A stretch of DNA of 64,000 bases from Murdochiella massiliensis (GTDB lineage: Bacteria > Bacillota > Clostridia > Tissierellales > Peptoniphilaceae), in assembly GCF_900059565.1 (NCBI RefSeq), contig NZ_FIZW01000002.1, forward strand, positions 310,001-374,000, written 5' to 3'. The notes below the pieces were generated by a model, which saw only the letters and a list, made by a program, of their open reading frames with translations, was not told the origin of the DNA and made no database searches. The position numbers and the translations under genes are program-made. Each line of letters begins with the position of its first letter. The stretch's first letter is position 1. Below are positions 27,030-56,980 of the stretch, in pieces.

Positions 27030-27290
27030 ATTAAAAAACGCCCCTTGTCAACGACAAAGGACGAAAAAATTTCCGCGGTACCACCTTACTTCGCATCCAA
27101 CGATGCGCACCTTCAAGCACAATCATGCTCTAACTCTATAACGGGAGTTCCCGTACAACCCTAAGATCGAATTGTCCCATCCGAGGCCATGTTCCTCTCG
27201 ACTCCCACGCGCCCTTCTCAGCTACCGGGCTTCTCTGTAACGCTTCTTTCGAAAGTACTCTTCTCTTCTGCTGGTTTGTTATGAAGTTGT
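27030..27290 (-). promoter_or_regulatory. T-box leader of metNIQ, apparent methionine specifier
   Basis: Minus-strand leader with the invariant T-box core AGGTGGTACCGCGG (about 27072-27085), followed by a rho-independent terminator made of CGTCCTTTGTC / GACAAGGGGCG and TTTTTT (27032-27063). Stem I occupies roughly 27180-27275. On its 3' side GAGGAAC-ATG-GCCTC presents AUG at the place expected for the specifier codon, fitting regulation by uncharged tRNA-Met. Uncharged tRNA would favour the antiterminator and switch on methionine import. Confidence 0.9.
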
Positions 27291-32774: not shown

Positions 32775-32798
32775 GGTTTTCCTTTCTCAATTCCGACG

Positions 32799-32927
32799 GG
32801 CTCGTTTCTGGCGAGGCTCATCTTTGACGAGGCTCGTTTTTATTTTGTCTCGTTTCCGCCGGATCTCGTTTTTGACGAGGCTCGTTTCCATCGGTTCCCG
32901 TTTTTAACATGTCTTGTTTCCGCCGGA
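32799..32927. repeat. Degenerate 16-bp tandem repeats
   Basis: Eight head-to-tail units of 15-17 bp, e.g. GGCTCGTTTCTGGCGA, GGCTCATCTTTGACGA, TCTCGTTTCCGCCGGA. The shared core is CTCGTTT followed by a GACGA or GCCGGA tail. They fill the gap between the pyridoxal kinase and uridine-kinase-like genes. The unit is not a multiple of three, so they do not encode a repeat protein. Confidence 0.75.
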
Positions 32928-32940
32928 TAACAGAGCGTGA

Positions 32941-34614
32941 TTATACCAACTTGCTTCCTCCGATAAATTCGCGCAAGATCGACGTATTTACCACATCAGA
33001 AGTATCCGTTAACGGGAGAAAATACTGCAATAACGATAGAATACGCACGGCTTCAATGCGTTCAGGCTCCTCTTCGCCGATGCCCCGAAGATGTTGTTCC
33101 AAGATCGGCTTAAGTGCCGCAATTTCATAGACAAAGGAAGAGTTGAACATAACATCGGCCAACTCGGAATACGGAAAGATGTTGCGGTCCTCTCCGCGGC
33201 GCACATCCGGCCACGTGCGGATTGTTTCGCGCACGTCCCGCCCACGGAACTGCAAATCGCGCGCCATGCGCCGCATGAGACGCAGATCCGTCGTAGGAAT
33301 GCGATTGTGTGCGTCCAGATTGATCTGTGTAATGACGCTTAGCGCGATGCGGTATTTATATCGGTTGTCCACTTCCGCACTGAGCTTGGGGTTAAGCCCG
33401 TGGATGCCTTCCAGAAGAACCGGTTCATCCGCGCCGAGGCGAATCCGCTCATCGGTATGCACACGCTTGCCGGCCACAAAGTCAAAGCGGATGCGTTCAA
33501 TTTCCTCACCGGTGAGCAGAGCGCGCATATCCGCGTTAAAGGTTCGTAAGTCAATGGCTTCCAGCGCTTCAAAATCCGGCTCGCCATTTTCGTCCAAGGG
33601 CGTATTTTCCCGATCGACAAAATAGTCATCCAGCGAAATCGCCACCGGCCGTTTGCCCAACACGCGAAGCGATGTCATCAGCTTATAAGCGAAGCTGGTC
33701 TTCCCGGACGATGACGGTGCGGCAATGAGCACAATGCGTTTGTTTTTTAAGACAATGTCTTCCGCAATATGCATGATTTTATGATCCAGAAGGGCTTCAT
33801 TCATGCGACAGACGTCGCCGATGGTCCCGTTTTGGATGCTGCGATTGAGCTGTGCCACGGTATAGATGCCCTGCCGATCCGCCCAGTCTTCCGCTTCATT
33901 ATAGGTGTCGGAGAGCAAATAGGTCGGAATGAAATTGTTAACCCGTCCCTTATCGTGTCGATCCACGCCGAGAAGCACAAGGCCATGATCAAACAGTTCC
34001 AGGTCAAAGACGGAAACATATCCGCTGGAAGGTGCCATATAGCCGAAGAAGGAATCCACCGCATTACCCATGCGATACACCGCCACACGCTTGCCCTTCT
34101 GCTGTGCATAAAGGTCCACTTTATCCGCGCGTCCCAGTGTACGAAACAGCTGCTTTGCCTCTTCATAGGTCATGTTTTCGCGCACAATCGGGATGTCGGC
34201 CTCAATGATTTTGCGCATTTCCGCTTTCAGCTCGTCGCGCTGTCTCGTATCCATCATGAATACGTGTCCGTTGCGATGCAGCACGCAATACAGGCCGCCG
34301 GAAATGGAATGTTCAATCACTGTATGTGTATCCGGAAAAAGGCGATCAATGGCCTCCAAAAAAACGAAGGAAAGCGTGCGCATATACACCCGATAGCCGT
34401 CCGTATCCGTCGTATCCATCAACACGATCTCTTCCGCTTCCTCCGGAATCGGCTGCGTCAGCTCAAACAGATGATTTTCTACCCGCGCCAAAACAATGCG
34501 TCCAAGCGCTTTCTCTTCCATTTTTTCCGCGCACTGCGCAAAGGTCGTCTCTTTCGAAACCGCGACTTCTTTCCCCTCTTTCTCCGTATAGAGCCGCATC
34601 GTACACTTCCGCAC
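32941..34614 (-). CDS. Uridine-kinase-like nucleoside kinase with N-terminal TGS/ThrRS-like region
   Basis: Protein of 557 residues. The C-terminal half is a P-loop phosphoribulokinase/uridine kinase domain: Walker A IAAPSSSGKTSFA near residues 310-323, then ISLDDYFVDRENTP and LLEGIHGLNP. The N-terminal half (VENHLFELTQPIPEEAEEIVLMD, HSISGGLYC) resembles the TGS plus second additional domain of threonyl-tRNA synthetase, a known long family in clostridia and bacilli. The substrate is presumed to be a nucleoside. The start is GTG at 34612-34614, 5 bp after AAAGGAGG; the open frame beyond it has no such signal. Confidence 0.82.
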   Translation of the reverse strand: MRKCTMRLYTEKEGKEVAVSKETTFAQCAEKMEEKALGRIVLARVENHLFELTQPIPEEAEEIVLMDTTDTDGYRVYMRTLSFVFLEAIDRLFPDTHTVIEHSISGGLYCVLHRNGHVFMMDTRQRDELKAEMRKIIEADIPIVRENMTYEEAKQLFRTLGRADKVDLYAQQKGKRVAVYRMGNAVDSFFGYMAPSSGYVSVFDLELFDHGLVLLGVDRHDKGRVNNFIPTYLLSDTYNEAEDWADRQGIYTVAQLNRSIQNGTIGDVCRMNEALLDHKIMHIAEDIVLKNKRIVLIAAPSSSGKTSFAYKLMTSLRVLGKRPVAISLDDYFVDRENTPLDENGEPDFEALEAIDLRTFNADMRALLTGEEIERIRFDFVAGKRVHTDERIRLGADEPVLLEGIHGLNPKLSAEVDNRYKYRIALSVITQINLDAHNRIPTTDLRLMRRMARDLQFRGRDVRETIRTWPDVRRGEDRNIFPYSELADVMFNSSFVYEIAALKPILEQHLRGIGEEEPERIEAVRILSLLQYFLPLTDTSDVVNTSILREFIGGSKLV

Positions 34615-34839
34615 GGTGGCCTCCTTTCCTTTATACCGTATCTTGCTGTTCCCGTATCTTGCTGTTTTGTTTGTTGGTAAGCGATGGATGGCGTTTTGCC
34701 TGCCATCAGGTTCTTCGTCATCGGTTGTTGGTGTCATGGTTGGCTTTTGGTTGTTGGTTAGGAGCATGCTGTGACACCGTATGGCGTTATTTTAACATAG
34801 CCGGGCGATGGGTGGAGTTGGGGGTGTGGGCTACTGATG
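34615..34839. other. Non-coding upstream region of the uridine-kinase-like gene
   Basis: No gene is supported. The short sequence CGTATCTTGCTGTT occurs twice (about 34634-34665). The region should contain the minus-strand promoter of the kinase gene; none was identified with confidence. Beyond it come the repeat arrays. Confidence 0.4.
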
Positions 34840-34925
34840 GGCAGGGGTGGAGATGTTTGGCAGGGGTTGAAGATGTTGGGTAGAGGCCGAAGATGTTGGC
34901 GGGGGCTGAAGATGTTGGCAGGGAC
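34840..34925. repeat. G-rich tandem repeats, about 20 bp
   Basis: Four to five units of 19-20 bp on the pattern GGCAGGGGTTGAAGATGTTG, starting near 34840, 34859, 34879 and 34899, with differences between copies. They abut the 63-bp periodic array. All guanine-rich on the plus strand. Confidence 0.7.
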
Positions 34926-34932
34926 CGGGTTT

Positions 34933-35346
34933 TATGTCCCTTTTTTGCGATTTTGTATTTTCGGACACACCTCTGGCGGATGAATCCGGAAAAGTGTGTC
35001 CTTATTTTGGCTTTTCTTTATTTTCGGACACAGGAATACCGGTATTCGAGGCGATTTTGTGTCCTTTTTTCGAGAATTTGCATTTTTCGGACACGAAAAT
35101 GTCGGGCCAATGTCGGAAAAGTGTGTCCCTTTTTTGGCTTTTCTTTATTTTCGGACACAAAAACCGCCATTTCTCTGAATTATCTGTGTCCTTTTTTCTT
35201 CGTTTCCTCATTTTCGGATACAAATTACCATCCTACAATGCAAAATTGTAGCCTCTTTTTGTCGATTCCCGATTTTCGGACATAAAATTGTAATGATTTG
35301 ATACAAACCCGTGTTCCCTTTTTTGTGTTTTGTGAATTTAGGATAC
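34933..35346. repeat. Array of seven 36-bp elements at 63-bp period
   Basis: Seven degenerate 36-bp units, starting at 34933, 34996, 35059, 35123, 35186, 35248 and 35311; distances are 63, 63, 64, 63, 62, 63. Each opens with GTGTCC or a variant, continues with a T6 tract and a pyrimidine-rich middle, and ends TTTTCGGACAC, so the ends form a 6-bp inverted repeat. The 27-bp intervals differ from each other. The last two units are the most diverged. Open frames cross the array only because 63 is a multiple of three. It is unlike the I-E CRISPR repeat nearby and has no adjacent recombinase. Confidence 0.8.
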
Positions 35347-35600
35347 ATTCTCCTAAAAGTAATGTTTGTTCACTCTTGAGATATTTTTTCGATTCCTTTA
35401 GCCTGCAGTGATCCGGGATTTTCTTTTATTTCCTTTCAACCTCTCAAAATCCTTTCACCACGTCTCCGCTACTTCTCCAAGGTAAAAAGGACAAAAAGGA
35501 CTTTGTTTCGTTTTATCGTGTCCTAGTTAACGCAACAGAGATCCCTATTTTTTTACTTGCCATACTTCCTCCCCACTAAAAAAGCACCCTGTAATTGCAC
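35347..35600. other. AT-rich non-coding stretch
   Basis: No gene, RNA or clear repeat recognised. It lies between the periodic array and the palindrome. Confidence 0.4.
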
Positions 35601-35644
35601 TGACCCCCTAAAGTTGGACCAAAAAATCCAACTTTAGGGGGTCA
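35601..35644. repeat. Perfect palindrome (IS3-end-like), copy 2
   Basis: 18-bp arms TGACCCCCTAAAGTTGGA and TCCAACTTTAGGGGGTCA separated by CCAAAAAA. Arms match each other perfectly and start TG / end CA. They look like the terminal inverted repeats of IS3-family (IS150 group) elements brought face to face. Related to the palindrome at 8217-8265. No transposase is nearby. It could be a miniature element, an abutted-end remnant, or a terminator for the gene ending at 35688. Confidence 0.65.
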
Positions 35645-35687
35645 ATGCATAATCAGGACGCTTTCCGATCTCTTTTCTATTTACGTA

Positions 35688-36011
35688 TCAAAACAGATCT
35701 AAAAACGTTCGCTTCAAATTTCCCCTTAGACGCTTCTTTTTGGCTTTTACGCGCTTCTTTCTTGCCTTCATCTCTGCCCAGTAAAGTCTATCTGCAATTG
35801 CGCCTGCTTTAGCGCTGGCATAGACATACTCTGTTGCTGTTCTCGGGGTCGGTATTGTGCGACGTTGTTCTTCTAAACCAATCGTATGCCAATCCGGATA
35901 TGGGTCCTCTTTGTATTGATTGTACAGTGCCCATTCGTAATACGCCTTCTTAAAGGCTTCCCACCTTTCCTTGAAAGGTGCTTTTACAACGATTCTATTT
36001 TCTTTCATCAT
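35688..36011 (-). CDS. Small hypothetical protein beyond the CRISPR array
   Basis: 107 residues, family not recognised. The middle is aromatic and acidic (RWEAFKKAYYEWALYNQYKEDPYPDWHTIGL), followed by an Ala/Thr-rich helix and a strongly basic C-terminus (KARKKRVKAKKKRLRG), which suggests nucleic-acid or ribosome contact. The ATG pair at 36006-36011 follows GAGAGGTGCC. It lies downstream of the leader-distal end of the array, on the same strand as cas. No transmembrane segment. It may be cargo acquired with the locus. Confidence 0.5.
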   Translation of the reverse strand: MMKENRIVVKAPFKERWEAFKKAYYEWALYNQYKEDPYPDWHTIGLEEQRRTIPTPRTATEYVYASAKAGAIADRLYWAEMKARKKRVKAKKKRLRGNLKRTFLDLF

Positions 36012-36090
36012 GGCACCTCTCTTTCTTTGGTTTGATATATACCCGCATTCAAGCAAACTGCACGCGAGAAGGCTCGACATAAGAAAAACT

Positions 36091-37886: not shown

Positions 37887-40329
<2,443 letters not shown>

Positions 40330-40355
<26 letters not shown>

Positions 40356-41061
40356 CCTGCCCTCCCACTGCTTGAAATGCATCATGCTCCGTTACTATCT
40401 TCTCATATGGCAGAAAAATGGAAGTTGTTTTTTCTAAACGCGGTTTGTATTGACGCGATTTTTGAGACAACGAAACAATAGTGTCTTGACGAATGATTTC
40501 TGTACCATTATCCAGTAAAGATGCATCAGCATACAGGTCAAGACGCGGCGTATTTCTTCGTTGATACCAGGGTGTCGCCTGCCAAGGCAAGTGGTGAAGC
40601 GTTTCAATGACGCTTCCATTTACCACACCCAAGACAAAATCCGCCGGTACAGGAGCGGATCGTCTTCCCATGCTCAACGAAAAATAGGGATGCAAAAGGG
40701 CGTCGTGTATCGTCTCGATCCATGCGTCATCTTCGTGACCCAAAGCGACAACAAAAACGGCATCCTGCAAATAATAGCGCTGGGTCACATATGTCTTCGC
40801 AAAAGAAAAATCATTCTTATACGTATGTGCCGTATGATAATCATGCAGAAGAACGCCGGGCTGGTCGACACGCACAGCGAAATCTAAAGCCTGCAGCGCG
40901 CAAATTTCTTTGTCCTGATCTCTCCGAAATCCAAAGGCCGCCGCCACGAATCCCAACACGCCGCTTTTTGACGGATAGAGATCCGTTCGCCGTATATTAA
41001 AATGGGAATTTGTTCCCCAGGATTGCAACGGACCGGAGAATTTTAGCAATACCGTTTTCAT
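40330..41061 (-). CDS. cas5e: Cas5e (CasD), Cascade subunit
   Basis: 243 residues. RAMP-fold subunit that holds the 5' handle of the crRNA in the I-E Cascade complex. The N-terminus TVLLKFSGPLQSWGTNSHFNIRRTDLYPSKSGVLGFVAAAFG is diagnostic for Cas5e (quoted here only as key parts: LQSWG, and PSKSGVLG). The gene overlaps the start of cas6e by 26 bp and follows cas7e after 5 bp. Ribosome binding site weak, so coupling to cas7e is likely. Confidence 0.95.
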
Positions 41062-41066
41062 GATAG

Positions 41067-42179
41067 CTACTCATTCAATTTCAAAGCTGCATTTAACTCT
41101 TGACCCATTGTTTCCAGCATCACAGGGAGCGAATCCATCATTTGTATTTTCGGATTGTTTTCTATTTCCTCCTGTGTTGTAAGGAGCAACGACCAAATCG
41201 GCGGTGCTACAAATTTTTCAACGCGATCCTTTTCTTCCAACATTTTTTTAATGGAAAGAGAATCATACCCATTCTCAGAACGAACCGGCTGTTCAAAGGC
41301 ACTAACCAGGTTGACAGGACGATCTGAACGCAAAATAAGAAGTAAAGCTTGTGGCACGGTTTGATGGGCAAACGGATTCACCATTCCGATCGGAAGACTG
41401 TTTGAAAAGGCTTCAACGAAGATTTTAAGGACGTCGATGGTCTCCTTAGTGCTTTCCATTTGCTTTAAGAGTTCATGAACAGCAACATTGGCATAGCGAT
41501 AGTACGTCGCAGCATTAAATTCCACCGTGTCCAACATAGCCGCGCCCGCGTTTTGCTCCCGCGTTAAATCATCTATCGCCGCATAATAATCGAATTCCGT
41601 CTGCACAGCATGGGTGGAAATCGCATGAGCAACCTGAGCTGAAGCATCCTCTTTTAAGTAGTCTTTTCCCGCCAACATGCGACCAAATAATGCGATATCA
41701 ATCGACGGGTTTTCTTTCAGGATTTGTTTATAATCTTCCGCTTCCGCCGTTCCACTCAGTGCAGCTTGAGCTAAACGAGTCGCCTGTTGATTTCCCATAA
41801 AAAACAAAGCTTTCGCGATCTCCGACTTCCCTTTAGAAGTTTTGGCCTTCGATTTTCCAGTCGGAATCCCTACCGCTTTCACTACTTCAGCTGCTTTGTC
41901 CGATGCAATTGCTTCTTCTAAATCCGGTTTGAGCTCGCGCATTTTATTTGCTATGACATCGATAACCTGGAGTGTTCTCACACCTAACTTCTCTTTATCA
42001 ACATGTTCGAGAAAATATCGGCGCATCACACTCTTCCACGCCTGCGAACTGACGCGAGCACGGAGCACCCCACCGTATTGAGCCGTCTTCGGACTACCGG
42101 CATCATCTCGGTTGACATTTGATGGCGGAAGCGTCTGAATTGCATGAACATCCAAAAACCAGTGATCTGTATTACGCAT
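41067..42179 (-). CDS. cas7e: Cas7e (CasC/Cse4), Cascade backbone
   Basis: 370 residues. Six copies of this subunit form the I-E Cascade backbone along the crRNA spacer. The N-terminal LDVHAIQTLPPSNVNRDD and GVLRARVSSQAWKSVMRRYF are typical, as are FSNSLPIGMVNPFAHQTVPQ in the C-terminal half. ATG 42177-42179 follows AAAAAGGAG and overlaps the cse2 stop by 8 bp. Confidence 0.96.
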   Translation of the reverse strand: MRNTDHWFLDVHAIQTLPPSNVNRDDAGSPKTAQYGGVLRARVSSQAWKSVMRRYFLEHVDKEKLGVRTLQVIDVIANKMRELKPDLEEAIASDKAAEVVKAVGIPTGKSKAKTSKGKSEIAKALFFMGNQQATRLAQAALSGTAEAEDYKQILKENPSIDIALFGRMLAGKDYLKEDASAQVAHAISTHAVQTEFDYYAAIDDLTREQNAGAAMLDTVEFNAATYYRYANVAVHELLKQMESTKETIDVLKIFVEAFSNSLPIGMVNPFAHQTVPQALLLILRSDRPVNLVSAFEQPVRSENGYDSLSIKKMLEEKDRVEKFVAPPIWSLLLTTQEEIENNPKIQMMDSLPVMLETMGQELNAALKLNE

Positions 42180-42780
42180 TTTCTTCTCCTTTTTCTTCCT
42201 TCTTCCTTCGATAATAAGCTTCGGCCCATCGAAAACGCACGTCCTCCTGATGCCCTCGTAAAAACCAATAGAAATCACCAGCTAAGTTCGAAAAATCCAC
42301 GGGAGTACTTGATTTTGTTCGAGCTTTCAAAATTTGCATCATTTGTCGTGTACGATGCTCGAATTGGAAAAAATTGTTGGCCGTAATAAGAATACGGAAG
42401 CGCCGATCCATCGCTTCTCTTTCTTTTTCCGTACGTAAATCTGCTAATGATTCGCCAAAATTAGGACGAAATTGCTTTTCTTCTTTTATCAACACCGAAG
42501 CTTCGCACCCCTGCTGATAGAGAGCATAGTTTTGTAATGCATAGAGAATAGCCAGCTCTTCTTTCGTCGGTTCTCCATTTCGGCTCAGATAAAAATCTGG
42601 AAGATGTTCAAAGAGTAGCGGCCAAACTGCACTCGTTCGGCCAAGTTCCCGCCCAATTGAAGCACGCAAATTCGCCAACAAAGCCTTTCCACCTCCGGTG
42701 TTTCGAATTGCATCTACTTCGCATAATATTTTCGCTGTCACAATCGAAACGGGAGTTGGTTTTTTTTGTGTTGTATTCAT
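42172..42780 (-). CDS. cse2: Cse2 (CasB), Cascade small subunit
   Basis: 202 residues, largely helical. Two copies sit along the belly of Cascade and stabilise the R-loop. Basic residues are spread through the protein (GRELGR, RFRILITANN), with the closing FYWFLRGHQEDVRFRWAEAYY typical of Cse2. ATG at 42778-42780 follows AGAGGAGATT. The gene sits 11 bp after cse1. Confidence 0.93.
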   Translation of the reverse strand: MNTTQKKPTPVSIVTAKILCEVDAIRNTGGGKALLANLRASIGRELGRTSAVWPLLFEHLPDFYLSRNGEPTKEELAILYALQNYALYQQGCEASVLIKEEKQFRPNFGESLADLRTEKEREAMDRRFRILITANNFFQFEHRTRQMMQILKARTKSSTPVDFSNLAGDFYWFLRGHQEDVRFRWAEAYYRRKKEEKGEENA

Positions 42781-55899: not shown

Positions 55900-56952
55900 T
55901 TACGATTCATTTTGATTGGAGAAATCCTCCACTTCGGTCGCAGGCATGACCCAGCGATCCGACGCGATGGGCTCCCAACTGATATCCTCCTGATCGAGAG
56001 AGGCGACATCAATGCCGGCCGCCTCGCAAAGTATGGTCTCCCATTGCTCGGGAAAATCCAGAAAGCGCGGCAGAAAATACGGATGGAGGGCAAATGTTCG
56101 TCGAAAATGGACGATAATTTCCCGATTGCTCTGCGCGTCCATCACGTGCATGAGGGCCAACAGCATGACAAAAAAGCGGAAAGGATCCGGATGAAATTCC
56201 GGAGCTATACGCTCCATCGTGCGCCTGTCCGCTTTCAGAACCGCACAACCGTCCGTAAAGCGACGATTGGATAAACGACCATGGTGTGCACACGTATTAC
56301 GCAATTTGGCCAGGCAGCTGAAAAAGGAATATAAAACAATTTCGGATGCCACCCCGTAAAAGGCGGAAACCCGCTTTTGTTCCGGGCGGCGCATATTTTT
56401 AAAAATTTTCGTAAGGGTTCCGAGGGTAATCACTTCCATCGCGACATAGACGGGAACATCTCGTGTTTTCCCCTCTTCCGGACAAAAACGCCGTACAAAC
56501 GGCTCATTCGCTCTGGTCAACTCGTTTTCCAGATCGTTGATAAAATTTTTATGGTAGTCGTCCTGACGAAAATGGCCGGAATCCAAATAGCCGTACGCAC
56601 CGAAACTTTCAAGCAGTACGGTGCCGATGACATGTCGCAGTTGCACCTCATAATCCGAAAGATAGTCGAATAAAAAGTTTTTGATGCGACGGTCAGCAAG
56701 ATAGCTGTCAACCAGCATTTCAAACGTTGTTCCGTCCTGATATGTGCCGTCCGCCTTTTTCCAAGTCAGGCCGAAATTCTCCAGATGAAAAGGGCTGATA
56801 CGCTGAAAAACCTTCTTTGCATAATCCAGATCCCGGATGATGAGCTTGTCCTTGATCACCATGTCATAGAGTTTCGCATCCGAATGCATCAATTGTTGTG
56901 GAGTCACCACGCTCACCACCTTTGCAAAAAGTCCCGCCGTTTTGCACGTCAT
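55900..56952 (-). CDS. Abi-family (AbiD/F-like) HEPN protein
   Basis: 350 residues. The Abi_2 family includes lactococcal abortive-infection proteins AbiD and AbiF. The key HEPN RNase-like motif LRNTCAHHGRLSNR (R then HxxR) lies at about residues 217-230, following a long helical region (FLFDYLSDYEVQLRHVIGTVL). Hence a predicted RNA-targeting toxin or phage-defence effector. ATG 56952 has no ribosome binding site; a GTG at 56908-56910 behind AAAGGTGG may be the true start, shortening it by 14 residues. No antitoxin gene is adjacent. It stands far from the CRISPR locus. Confidence 0.8.
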   Translation of the reverse strand: MTCKTAGLFAKVVSVVTPQQLMHSDAKLYDMVIKDKLIIRDLDYAKKVFQRISPFHLENFGLTWKKADGTYQDGTTFEMLVDSYLADRRIKNFLFDYLSDYEVQLRHVIGTVLLESFGAYGYLDSGHFRQDDYHKNFINDLENELTRANEPFVRRFCPEEGKTRDVPVYVAMEVITLGTLTKIFKNMRRPEQKRVSAFYGVASEIVLYSFFSCLAKLRNTCAHHGRLSNRRFTDGCAVLKADRRTMERIAPEFHPDPFRFFVMLLALMHVMDAQSNREIIVHFRRTFALHPYFLPRFLDFPEQWETILCEAAGIDVASLDQEDISWEPIASDRWVMPATEVEDFSNQNES

Positions 56953-56980
56953 TGAGAGGTGTGGCGGGATCCGTAACTAC

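Follow-up and report, generated by a model that had tools for sequence, protein, structure and literature searches.

Rows of regularly spaced inverted half-sites between Murdochiella genes as candidate helically phased protein-binding arrays

What is the row of evenly spaced inverted repeats that lies in an intergenic region of Murdochiella massiliensis, and is it read by anything in the cell? In the window, the whole 64,000-nucleotide stretch of DNA that was analysed, the initial annotation had described seven 36-bp elements at a period of about 63 bp. We found seven units of the form GTRTCC-N-GGAYAC, each 35-36 bp long, within positions 34934-35346. The regular spacing was borne out, with unit-to-unit periods of 62, 63, 64, 63, 62, and 63 bp and six matches in the window to a 36-bp consensus (three mismatches or fewer) versus 0.03 expected from 100 shuffles, and the terminal GTGTCC/GGACAC inverted repeats, T tract, and TTTTCGG block that had been described are present. 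The number of elements also stands, but not their uniform length, as unit 1 is 35 bp with an ATGTCC half-site; units 6 and 7 are degenerate. The features of the locus are:

34934-34968, plus strand: unit 1, 35 bp, left half-site ATGTCC
34996-35031, plus strand: unit 2, 36 bp, exact GTGTCC...GGACAC
35059-35094, plus strand: unit 3, 36 bp, both half-sites exact
35123-35158, plus strand: unit 4, 36 bp, both half-sites exact; near copy of unit 2
35186-35221, plus strand: unit 5, right half-site GGATAC
35248-35283, plus strand: unit 6, degenerate, GTAGCC / GGACAT
35311-35346, plus strand: unit 7, degenerate, GTGTTC / GGATAC
34969-35310, no strand: span with the six intervals, each 26-28 bp
34969-34995, 35032-35058, and 35095-35122, no strand: intervals 1-3, between units 1-4
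35159-35185, 35222-35247, and 35284-35310, no strand: intervals 4-6, between units 4-7
34768-35687, no strand: intergenic region holding the array, from the uridine-kinase-type gene to the short ORF
32941-34767, minus strand: uridine-kinase-type gene flanking the array, with a Pfam match
35688-36080, minus strand: short ORF flanking the array, without a Pfam match

The intervals preceding units 2 and 4 have their last bases in common. Tandem Repeats Finder, run on the window at a score of 40, did not report the seven-unit array. The program found a 19-bp minisatellite (GGCAGGGGCTGAAGATGTT, 4.4 copies) at 34840-34923, immediately before the array, and CRISPR-type arrays from 36425 to about 37875; the ORFs at 37887-42278 we take to be Cas-like from reading their sequences. 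Short GACGAGG/CTCGTTTTT repeats occupy 32795-32928, an intergenic island between two minus-strand genes. A protein-coding origin of this and the other arrays described below was rejected because their periods of 62, 53, 55, 64, and 65 bp disrupt any reading frame, and ORFs overlying arrays are read as by-products.

The genome-wide search that the initial annotation had proposed revealed four further arrays with the same spacing in the source genome (G000, 1.64 Mb), so that the five GTGTCC arrays lie at 345k, 732k, 834k, 1134k, and 1159k of contig C2. Orthologous arrays occur in two related Murdochiella species, G001 and G004; five were retrieved from G004 and three from G001, and one more was seen in each. 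The pattern GTGTCC-N-GGACAC-N-GTGTCC matched 3 of 130 Peptoniphilaceae genomes, all of them Murdochiella (control 0), with no match in the Murdochiella genomes G002 and G003. In unit statistics that cover 13 arrays and leave out those at G004 C11:89437 and G001 C1:813.7k, the 87 units measured 36 bp (n=54), 35 bp (n=29), or 37 bp (n=4), the spacers 26-28 bp, and the 74 steps 61 (n=1), 62 (n=31), 63 (n=36), or 64 bp (n=6). At 10.4 bp per turn, the mean period of 62.6 bp makes six turns. Longer units tend to go with shorter spacers (r = -0.35 with the spacer after and -0.44 with the spacer before, in rows that are not independent). The unit consensus reads GTRTCC, a T tract, a loop, and TTTCGG that continues directly into GGAYAC; the edges of the spacers are rich in A/T, and half-site positions T2, T4, C5, and C6 are nearly invariant across the 87 units.

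Within the 13 arrays, unit cores were on average more similar to next-but-one than to adjacent neighbours (0.78 versus 0.73), as were the intervals (0.69 versus 0.59), and in the L033 and L060 arrays similarity peaked at three steps. Such peaks suggest that GTGTCC arrays grow by duplication of two- or three-unit blocks, and part of the spacing regularity would then be inherited. One unit, GTGTCCCTAATTTCAATAATTGAAATTAGGGACAC at L033 3414-3448, reads as a near-perfect palindrome over its 35 bp, as though one arm had been copied over the other. The proteins flanking the five arrays in G000, eight with a Pfam match and two without, comprise a uridine-kinase type, an E1-E2 ATPase, an ArsR regulator, a tRNA U5-methyltransferase type, a SpaA/Cna_B surface protein, a BrkB family member, a CWB2 cell-wall binding protein, and PrmC; no common function and no consistent orientation was found among these flanking genes. 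At the ATPase-ArsR locus, the intergenic region of G003 is short and the array is absent.

A survey of clustered inverted 7-mers in Murdochiella loci revealed arrays built on other half-sites, namely CCCTGGCT at 27/27 bp, AGGAGCC at 30/33 bp (63 bp in total, like GTGTCC), CACCATC with a period near 55 bp, and GGCACGGTC at 29/35 bp in G003, a genome that has no GTGTCC arrays. An unbiased scan that left the spacing free (periods of about 22-120 bp) and required six or more exact 6-mers in alternating inverted orientation detected 8 rows in 464 kb of G000 (the window and 20 spread stretches; shuffled control 0), 5 rows in 80 kb and 12 in 400 kb of G003, and 1 row in 120 kb and 4 in 160 kb of G001. 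This amounts to 30 rows in 1.224 Mb from three Murdochiella genomes, or 1.0% of the DNA. All but two of these rows had less than 20% of their length covered by ORFs of at least 200 aa (14% expected), the exceptions being L326 (0.42) and L310 (1.0, where the ORF lies over an array of the GGCACGGTC type). The scan returned no rows from 160 kb in each of the genera of G006 and G028, or from 20 stretches, 267 kb in all, drawn from G002 and 17 further genera; apart from patterns searched family-wide, absence from other genera refers to these small samples. With the targeted loci included, about thirteen half-site families occur in the genus, although they may not be independent. Each uses one inverted half-site in alternating orientation at fixed distances, with arms of 6-10 bp around loops of about 19-28 bp, and arrays of different families stand near each other to give a mosaic. 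Outside the arrays, half-site words were found near their Markov expectation, with deviations in both directions (GTGTCC, 63 versus 87 expected in G001; CCCATGT, 61 versus 44 expected in G003), and thus give no sign of single sites in use elsewhere.

In 22 arrays of the CCCTGGCT family, 258 of the 274 steps between neighbouring half-sites are 26 or 27 bp; of the remainder, 2 measure 24-25 bp, and 14 span a site that was missed and measure 52-54 bp. The pattern of this family matched 136 times in G000 (63 + 73) and 111 times in G004 (control 0), with no matches in G001, G002, or G003. A GC-rich word of the GCGCCGCC/GGCGGCGC type lies within 150 bp of 19 of the 22 arrays, versus 186 of 2000 random 300-bp windows. 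Words of the same GC-rich type were also seen as a 41-bp AGCGGC/GCCGCC repeat family at L277 13590-13755 and in the flanks of L351-L370.

Periods were compared across 51 rows from four genomes, unbiased and targeted, using same-orientation distances of 35-75 bp only; the set includes two overlapping L271 rows as well as orthologous arrays. Row means fell at 41.3-42.8 bp (5 rows), 52.8-55.9 bp (20 rows), and 61.2-65.0 bp (26 rows), with none between, so that the classes lie roughly 9-12 bp apart. In the unbiased sample alone, the scan periods were 41, 43, 53-55, and 63-65 bp, plus 86 bp for two L271 rows that resolve to about 43 bp with weaker intermediate sites. For 13 hand-defined families, which may share ancestry, concentration was 0.88 for a turn of 10.5 bp and at most 0.89, a value matched by 0 of 20,000 uniform draws; counting the three class means only, p was 0.02-0.10, depending on the choice of class mean and helical repeat. 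The best independent support for phasing comes from the CCGTAA family, in which the spacer is 20 bp in one form and 30 bp in another, a difference of about one helical turn. Arrays in G000, G001, and G003 have the form TTACGG-33/34-CCGTAA-20-TTACGG with a period of 53-54 bp, versus TTACGG-32/33-CCGTAA-30-TTACGG in G016, which belongs to another genus and in which five of six steps are 62-63 bp and one is 53 bp. The G016 chains are short (4-5 half-sites; 13 unit matches versus 1 in the control), and the 53-54 bp form was found in 5 of 129 genomes, four Murdochiella and G016 (control 0). The initial annotation had thus identified a real array while missing its membership in a class of about 13 families with three period classes.

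Half-site identity within arrays was 0.96 versus 0.64, a comparison that is partly circular since detection used exact half-sites; as exact matching favours conserved half-sites, comparison of orthologues is the fairer test. For the GTGTCC pairs (L034/L055, L030/L057, L030/L061, L032/L059, L033/L060, and L031/L056, with L030 used twice), identity was 416/442 (94%) in half-sites versus 346/451 (77%) in spacer cores (Fisher p 7e-14), and elsewhere 411/466 in T tracts, 305/378 in loops, 292/361 in spacer edges, and 484/597 in 60-bp flanks. Gaps affected 3% of half-sites, 6-7% of other array parts, and 17% of flanks, with 61 of the 123 flank gaps coming from the weakly syntenic L031/L056. In four G000/G004 pairs of CCCTGGCT arrays, half-sites were identical at 410/425 positions versus 721/903 for the array remainder (p 3e-18). 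Identity in the 150-bp flanks was 1025/1156, such that array intervals diverge beyond the flanks (0.80 versus 0.89), and gaps were the reverse of the GTGTCC pairs, at 17% and 21% within arrays versus 4% in flanks, which indicates that copy number moves. Sites are therefore conserved above intervals in two families, as for protein-binding iteron-like arrays. The intervals had initially been called unrelated; they are indeed looser than the half-sites, but those of the GTGTCC arrays are similar to one another in the same array and, between species, inherited position by position.

We propose, with a probability of roughly 45%, that each family is a helically phased row of sites for its own candidate DNA-binding protein. 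The array of the window would be a row of inverted 6-bp GTRTCC half-sites alternating at about 30 and 33 bp, with a 62.6-bp period of about six turns that makes all units face the same side of the helix. Each family would be read by its own sequence-specific symmetric protein, dimeric or oligomeric, which would bind phased rows cooperatively, and the bound rows would make a local intergenic nucleoprotein structure that might act as an anchor, bridge, or insulator. Phased binding sites were among the roles first suggested for the array, and they are supported here as a reading of the DNA from which we infer the binding protein itself, its cooperativity, and its role in the chromosome; the nucleoid or partition protein then suggested as the binder is one possible candidate. 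In favour of this proposal are the recurrence of the same GTGTCC half-site and spacing, with differing loops, at five unlinked loci of G000 and in two related species; the conservation of half-sites above intervals in GTGTCC and CCCTGGCT pairs; the period classes, the one-turn shift of CCGTAA, the compensation between unit and spacer, and the constant CCCTGGCT steps; and the position of 28 of the 30 rows mostly outside long ORFs. Counting against it are flanking genes without shared function or orientation, the block duplication, the excess of gaps within CCCTGGCT arrays over their flanks, half-site words near expectation outside arrays, and the bias of exact-match detection, together with the absence of the CCCTGGCT family from G001, which means that no family has a role of its own that every Murdochiella needs. 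Iterons and partition-site arrays are helically spaced rows of protein-binding sites; the Murdochiella rows differ from them in being many, unlinked, chromosomal, and of several half-site families, and the eight proteins with a Pfam match that flank the five GTGTCC arrays include no replication or partition protein.

A possible though doubtful alternative is that the rows are BIME-like non-autonomous mobile or satellite DNA, in which a putative transposase-type enzyme recognises the paired half-sites and spreads amplified modules through intergenic DNA; the half-sites would be kept because the enzyme needs them, and any host function would be secondary or absent. In layout, Neisseria NIME/dRS3, Streptococcus BOX, and MITEs resemble the Murdochiella arrays as mosaic intergenic repeats with short inverted ends; they are not known to have helical spacing classes. 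A similar layout is also that of BIMEs, described in part of PMC2817692 as regular, alternating, and extragenic, with several sequence families per genome, and the Murdochiella arrays share these properties as well as a mosaic arrangement and an amplified basic module. REPs, according to the same part of that source, are compact imperfect palindromes, usually with a GTAG-type head, whereas the Murdochiella arms of 6-10 bp stand some 20-35 bp apart, the arrays fall into three period classes about one turn apart, and their changes within arrays are mostly uncompensated, apart from a slight excess of compensated ones. A search for the Y1_Tnp family of RAYT proteins (PF01797) gave no match in the array-bearing genomes G000, G001, G003, and G004, while the control was positive in 5 of 14; G002 has one Y1_Tnp match with an internal TGA, and none of the three array patterns searched there matches. 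Assignment to REP/BIME was rejected on the missing RAYT in four genomes and the form of the unit, the agreement in layout notwithstanding, and we file the arrays as a probable variant of extragenic alternating-repeat arrays. Mobility is also favoured by the prmC locus, where a CCCTGGCT array with its surrounds, roughly 0.6 kb, is present in G000 and missing in G001, by the GC-rich word beside most CCCTGGCT arrays, by the proximity of different families, and by the gaps inside the array that distinguish CCCTGGCT pairs. However, half-sites are conserved despite diverged loops in arrays inherited by descent, and transposition does not need helical period classes.

We consider it unlikely that the row is instead transcribed and folds into repeated stem-loops, as RNA or as single-strand DNA hairpins. 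Seven arrays folded better than their dinucleotide shuffles (60 each) on both strands, with z from -2.6 to -10.1, but without strand preference and with no consistent orientation to genes, and inverted sites alone explain both the folding and the symmetry of the arms. In the GTGTCC arrays, half-site changes affected both sides 5 times within units (2 of them identical) versus 30 one-sided changes (about 4.2 expected), and 5 versus 21 across spacers (about 3.0 expected). Over 777 half-sites in the 51 rows, 9 core changes were compensated versus 103 one-sided, and 7 versus 122 for the other arm pair; shuffling gave expectations of 4.8 and 4.3, and the observed values were reached in 2 and 19 of 300 shuffles. 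This is a slight excess of compensated changes over a bulk that is uncompensated, and no excess was seen when two extra bases per side were considered (54 versus 50.1; 47 versus 52.5). Mostly one-sided changes do not support the RNA hairpins of the initial annotation as the selected feature, and we favour a putative trans-acting recognition of half-sites in phased rows. Of 30 CCGTAA units, 21-28 have complementary bases at positions 7-10 of the inner arm (11-14 expected), and both inner arms are altered together between subfamilies, which is a requirement of a hairpin and of a symmetric protein alike. An Rfam search of the window and five loci gave four matches above the gathering score, none of them over an array. 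Rfam places an abiF RNA at 56932-56968 of the window on the minus strand (41.1 bits; gathering 37) and a T-box leader at 27054-27279.

Neutral minisatellite drift, with rows recognised by nothing, is very unlikely in our view, as half-sites stay conserved amid divergence in two families, one half-site recurs at unlinked loci with different loops, and spacing is held within 1-2 bp through diverged loops, even though the two- and three-unit duplications and the higher gap frequency and interval divergence in CCCTGGCT arrays than in their flanks would suit it. A decayed CRISPR or other spacer array, as the initial annotation had also suggested from a geometry of about 36-bp repeats and 27-bp intervals and which the CRISPR-type array beginning 1.1 kb away might favour, is excluded for practical purposes by intervals that are homologous within the array and inherited between species. 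Also against it are degenerate units in which only short ends are conserved (the row was correctly judged not to be the I-E repeat), a BLAST search with the whole array, which matched no phage or plasmid record, the distance of at least 380 kb between the CRISPR locus and the other four GTGTCC arrays, and a set of eight Pfam-matched neighbours of the five arrays that includes no Cas protein.

Returning to helically phased rows of protein-binding sites, we tentatively extend this reading to a Peptoniphilaceae class of chromosomal nucleoprotein arrays, in which each half-site family would have its own fast-evolving binding protein and such pairs would arise and spread by lineage, although we think this wider scheme may well prove wrong. 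If true, the class would organise intergenic DNA and be comparable, among bacteria, to satellite DNA that has a box-binding protein of its own. The rows occupy about 1% of the Murdochiella DNA sampled and come in about a dozen sequence families that follow one design. If each row is read by a protein, nature would here provide a series of protein/site pairs with differing sequence and constant helical phase, and cooperative array binding and chromosome folding would become directly testable. If an enzyme spreads the rows instead, they would point to a transposase-like activity without RAYT. The literature searched, mainly titles and the starts of abstracts with parts of PMC2817692 and PMC12306157, contained no description of such arrays.

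Beyond Murdochiella, a GTGTCC scan of contigs (26 stretches) pointed to Pseudoduganella, Pseudooceanicola, Oceanicola, Algicola, Bifidobacterium, and a Thermodesulfobacteriota bin. The three-half-site pattern matched 2 of 7 such genomes, both Pseudoduganella, and across the order of Pseudoduganella 1 of 399 genomes, the query itself (reversed control 2 of 399); a universal GTGTCC system was dropped on these counts. A looser pattern yielded 116 viral stretches, about chance level by a hand estimate, and the array scan of these stretches (1.12 Mb) gave no rows at six sites and 2 at five. Two-unit GTGTCC elements are dispersed in the genomes of Pseudoduganella flava and lurida, with 20 and 25 pattern matches; most elements are counted on both strands. 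They share the half-site, a 35-bp unit, and an interval of about 27 bp with the Murdochiella arrays and differ in having two units only and a GGGGTCAACCCC core; the likeness is probably convergent. One such two-unit element lies at about 226-351 of L063. At six sites, the scan outside Murdochiella found one row, of CGTGTC sites with a 45-bp period, in Pseudooceanicola at L077, which was chosen because it matched the search pattern. Rows of GTRTCC-N6-GGAYAC sites were seen in Algicola, Oceanicola, and Pseudooceanicola (L065, L068, L077, and L082), where the adjoining genes may be of replication type; the row in L082 lies at about 1440-1620 on the minus strand.
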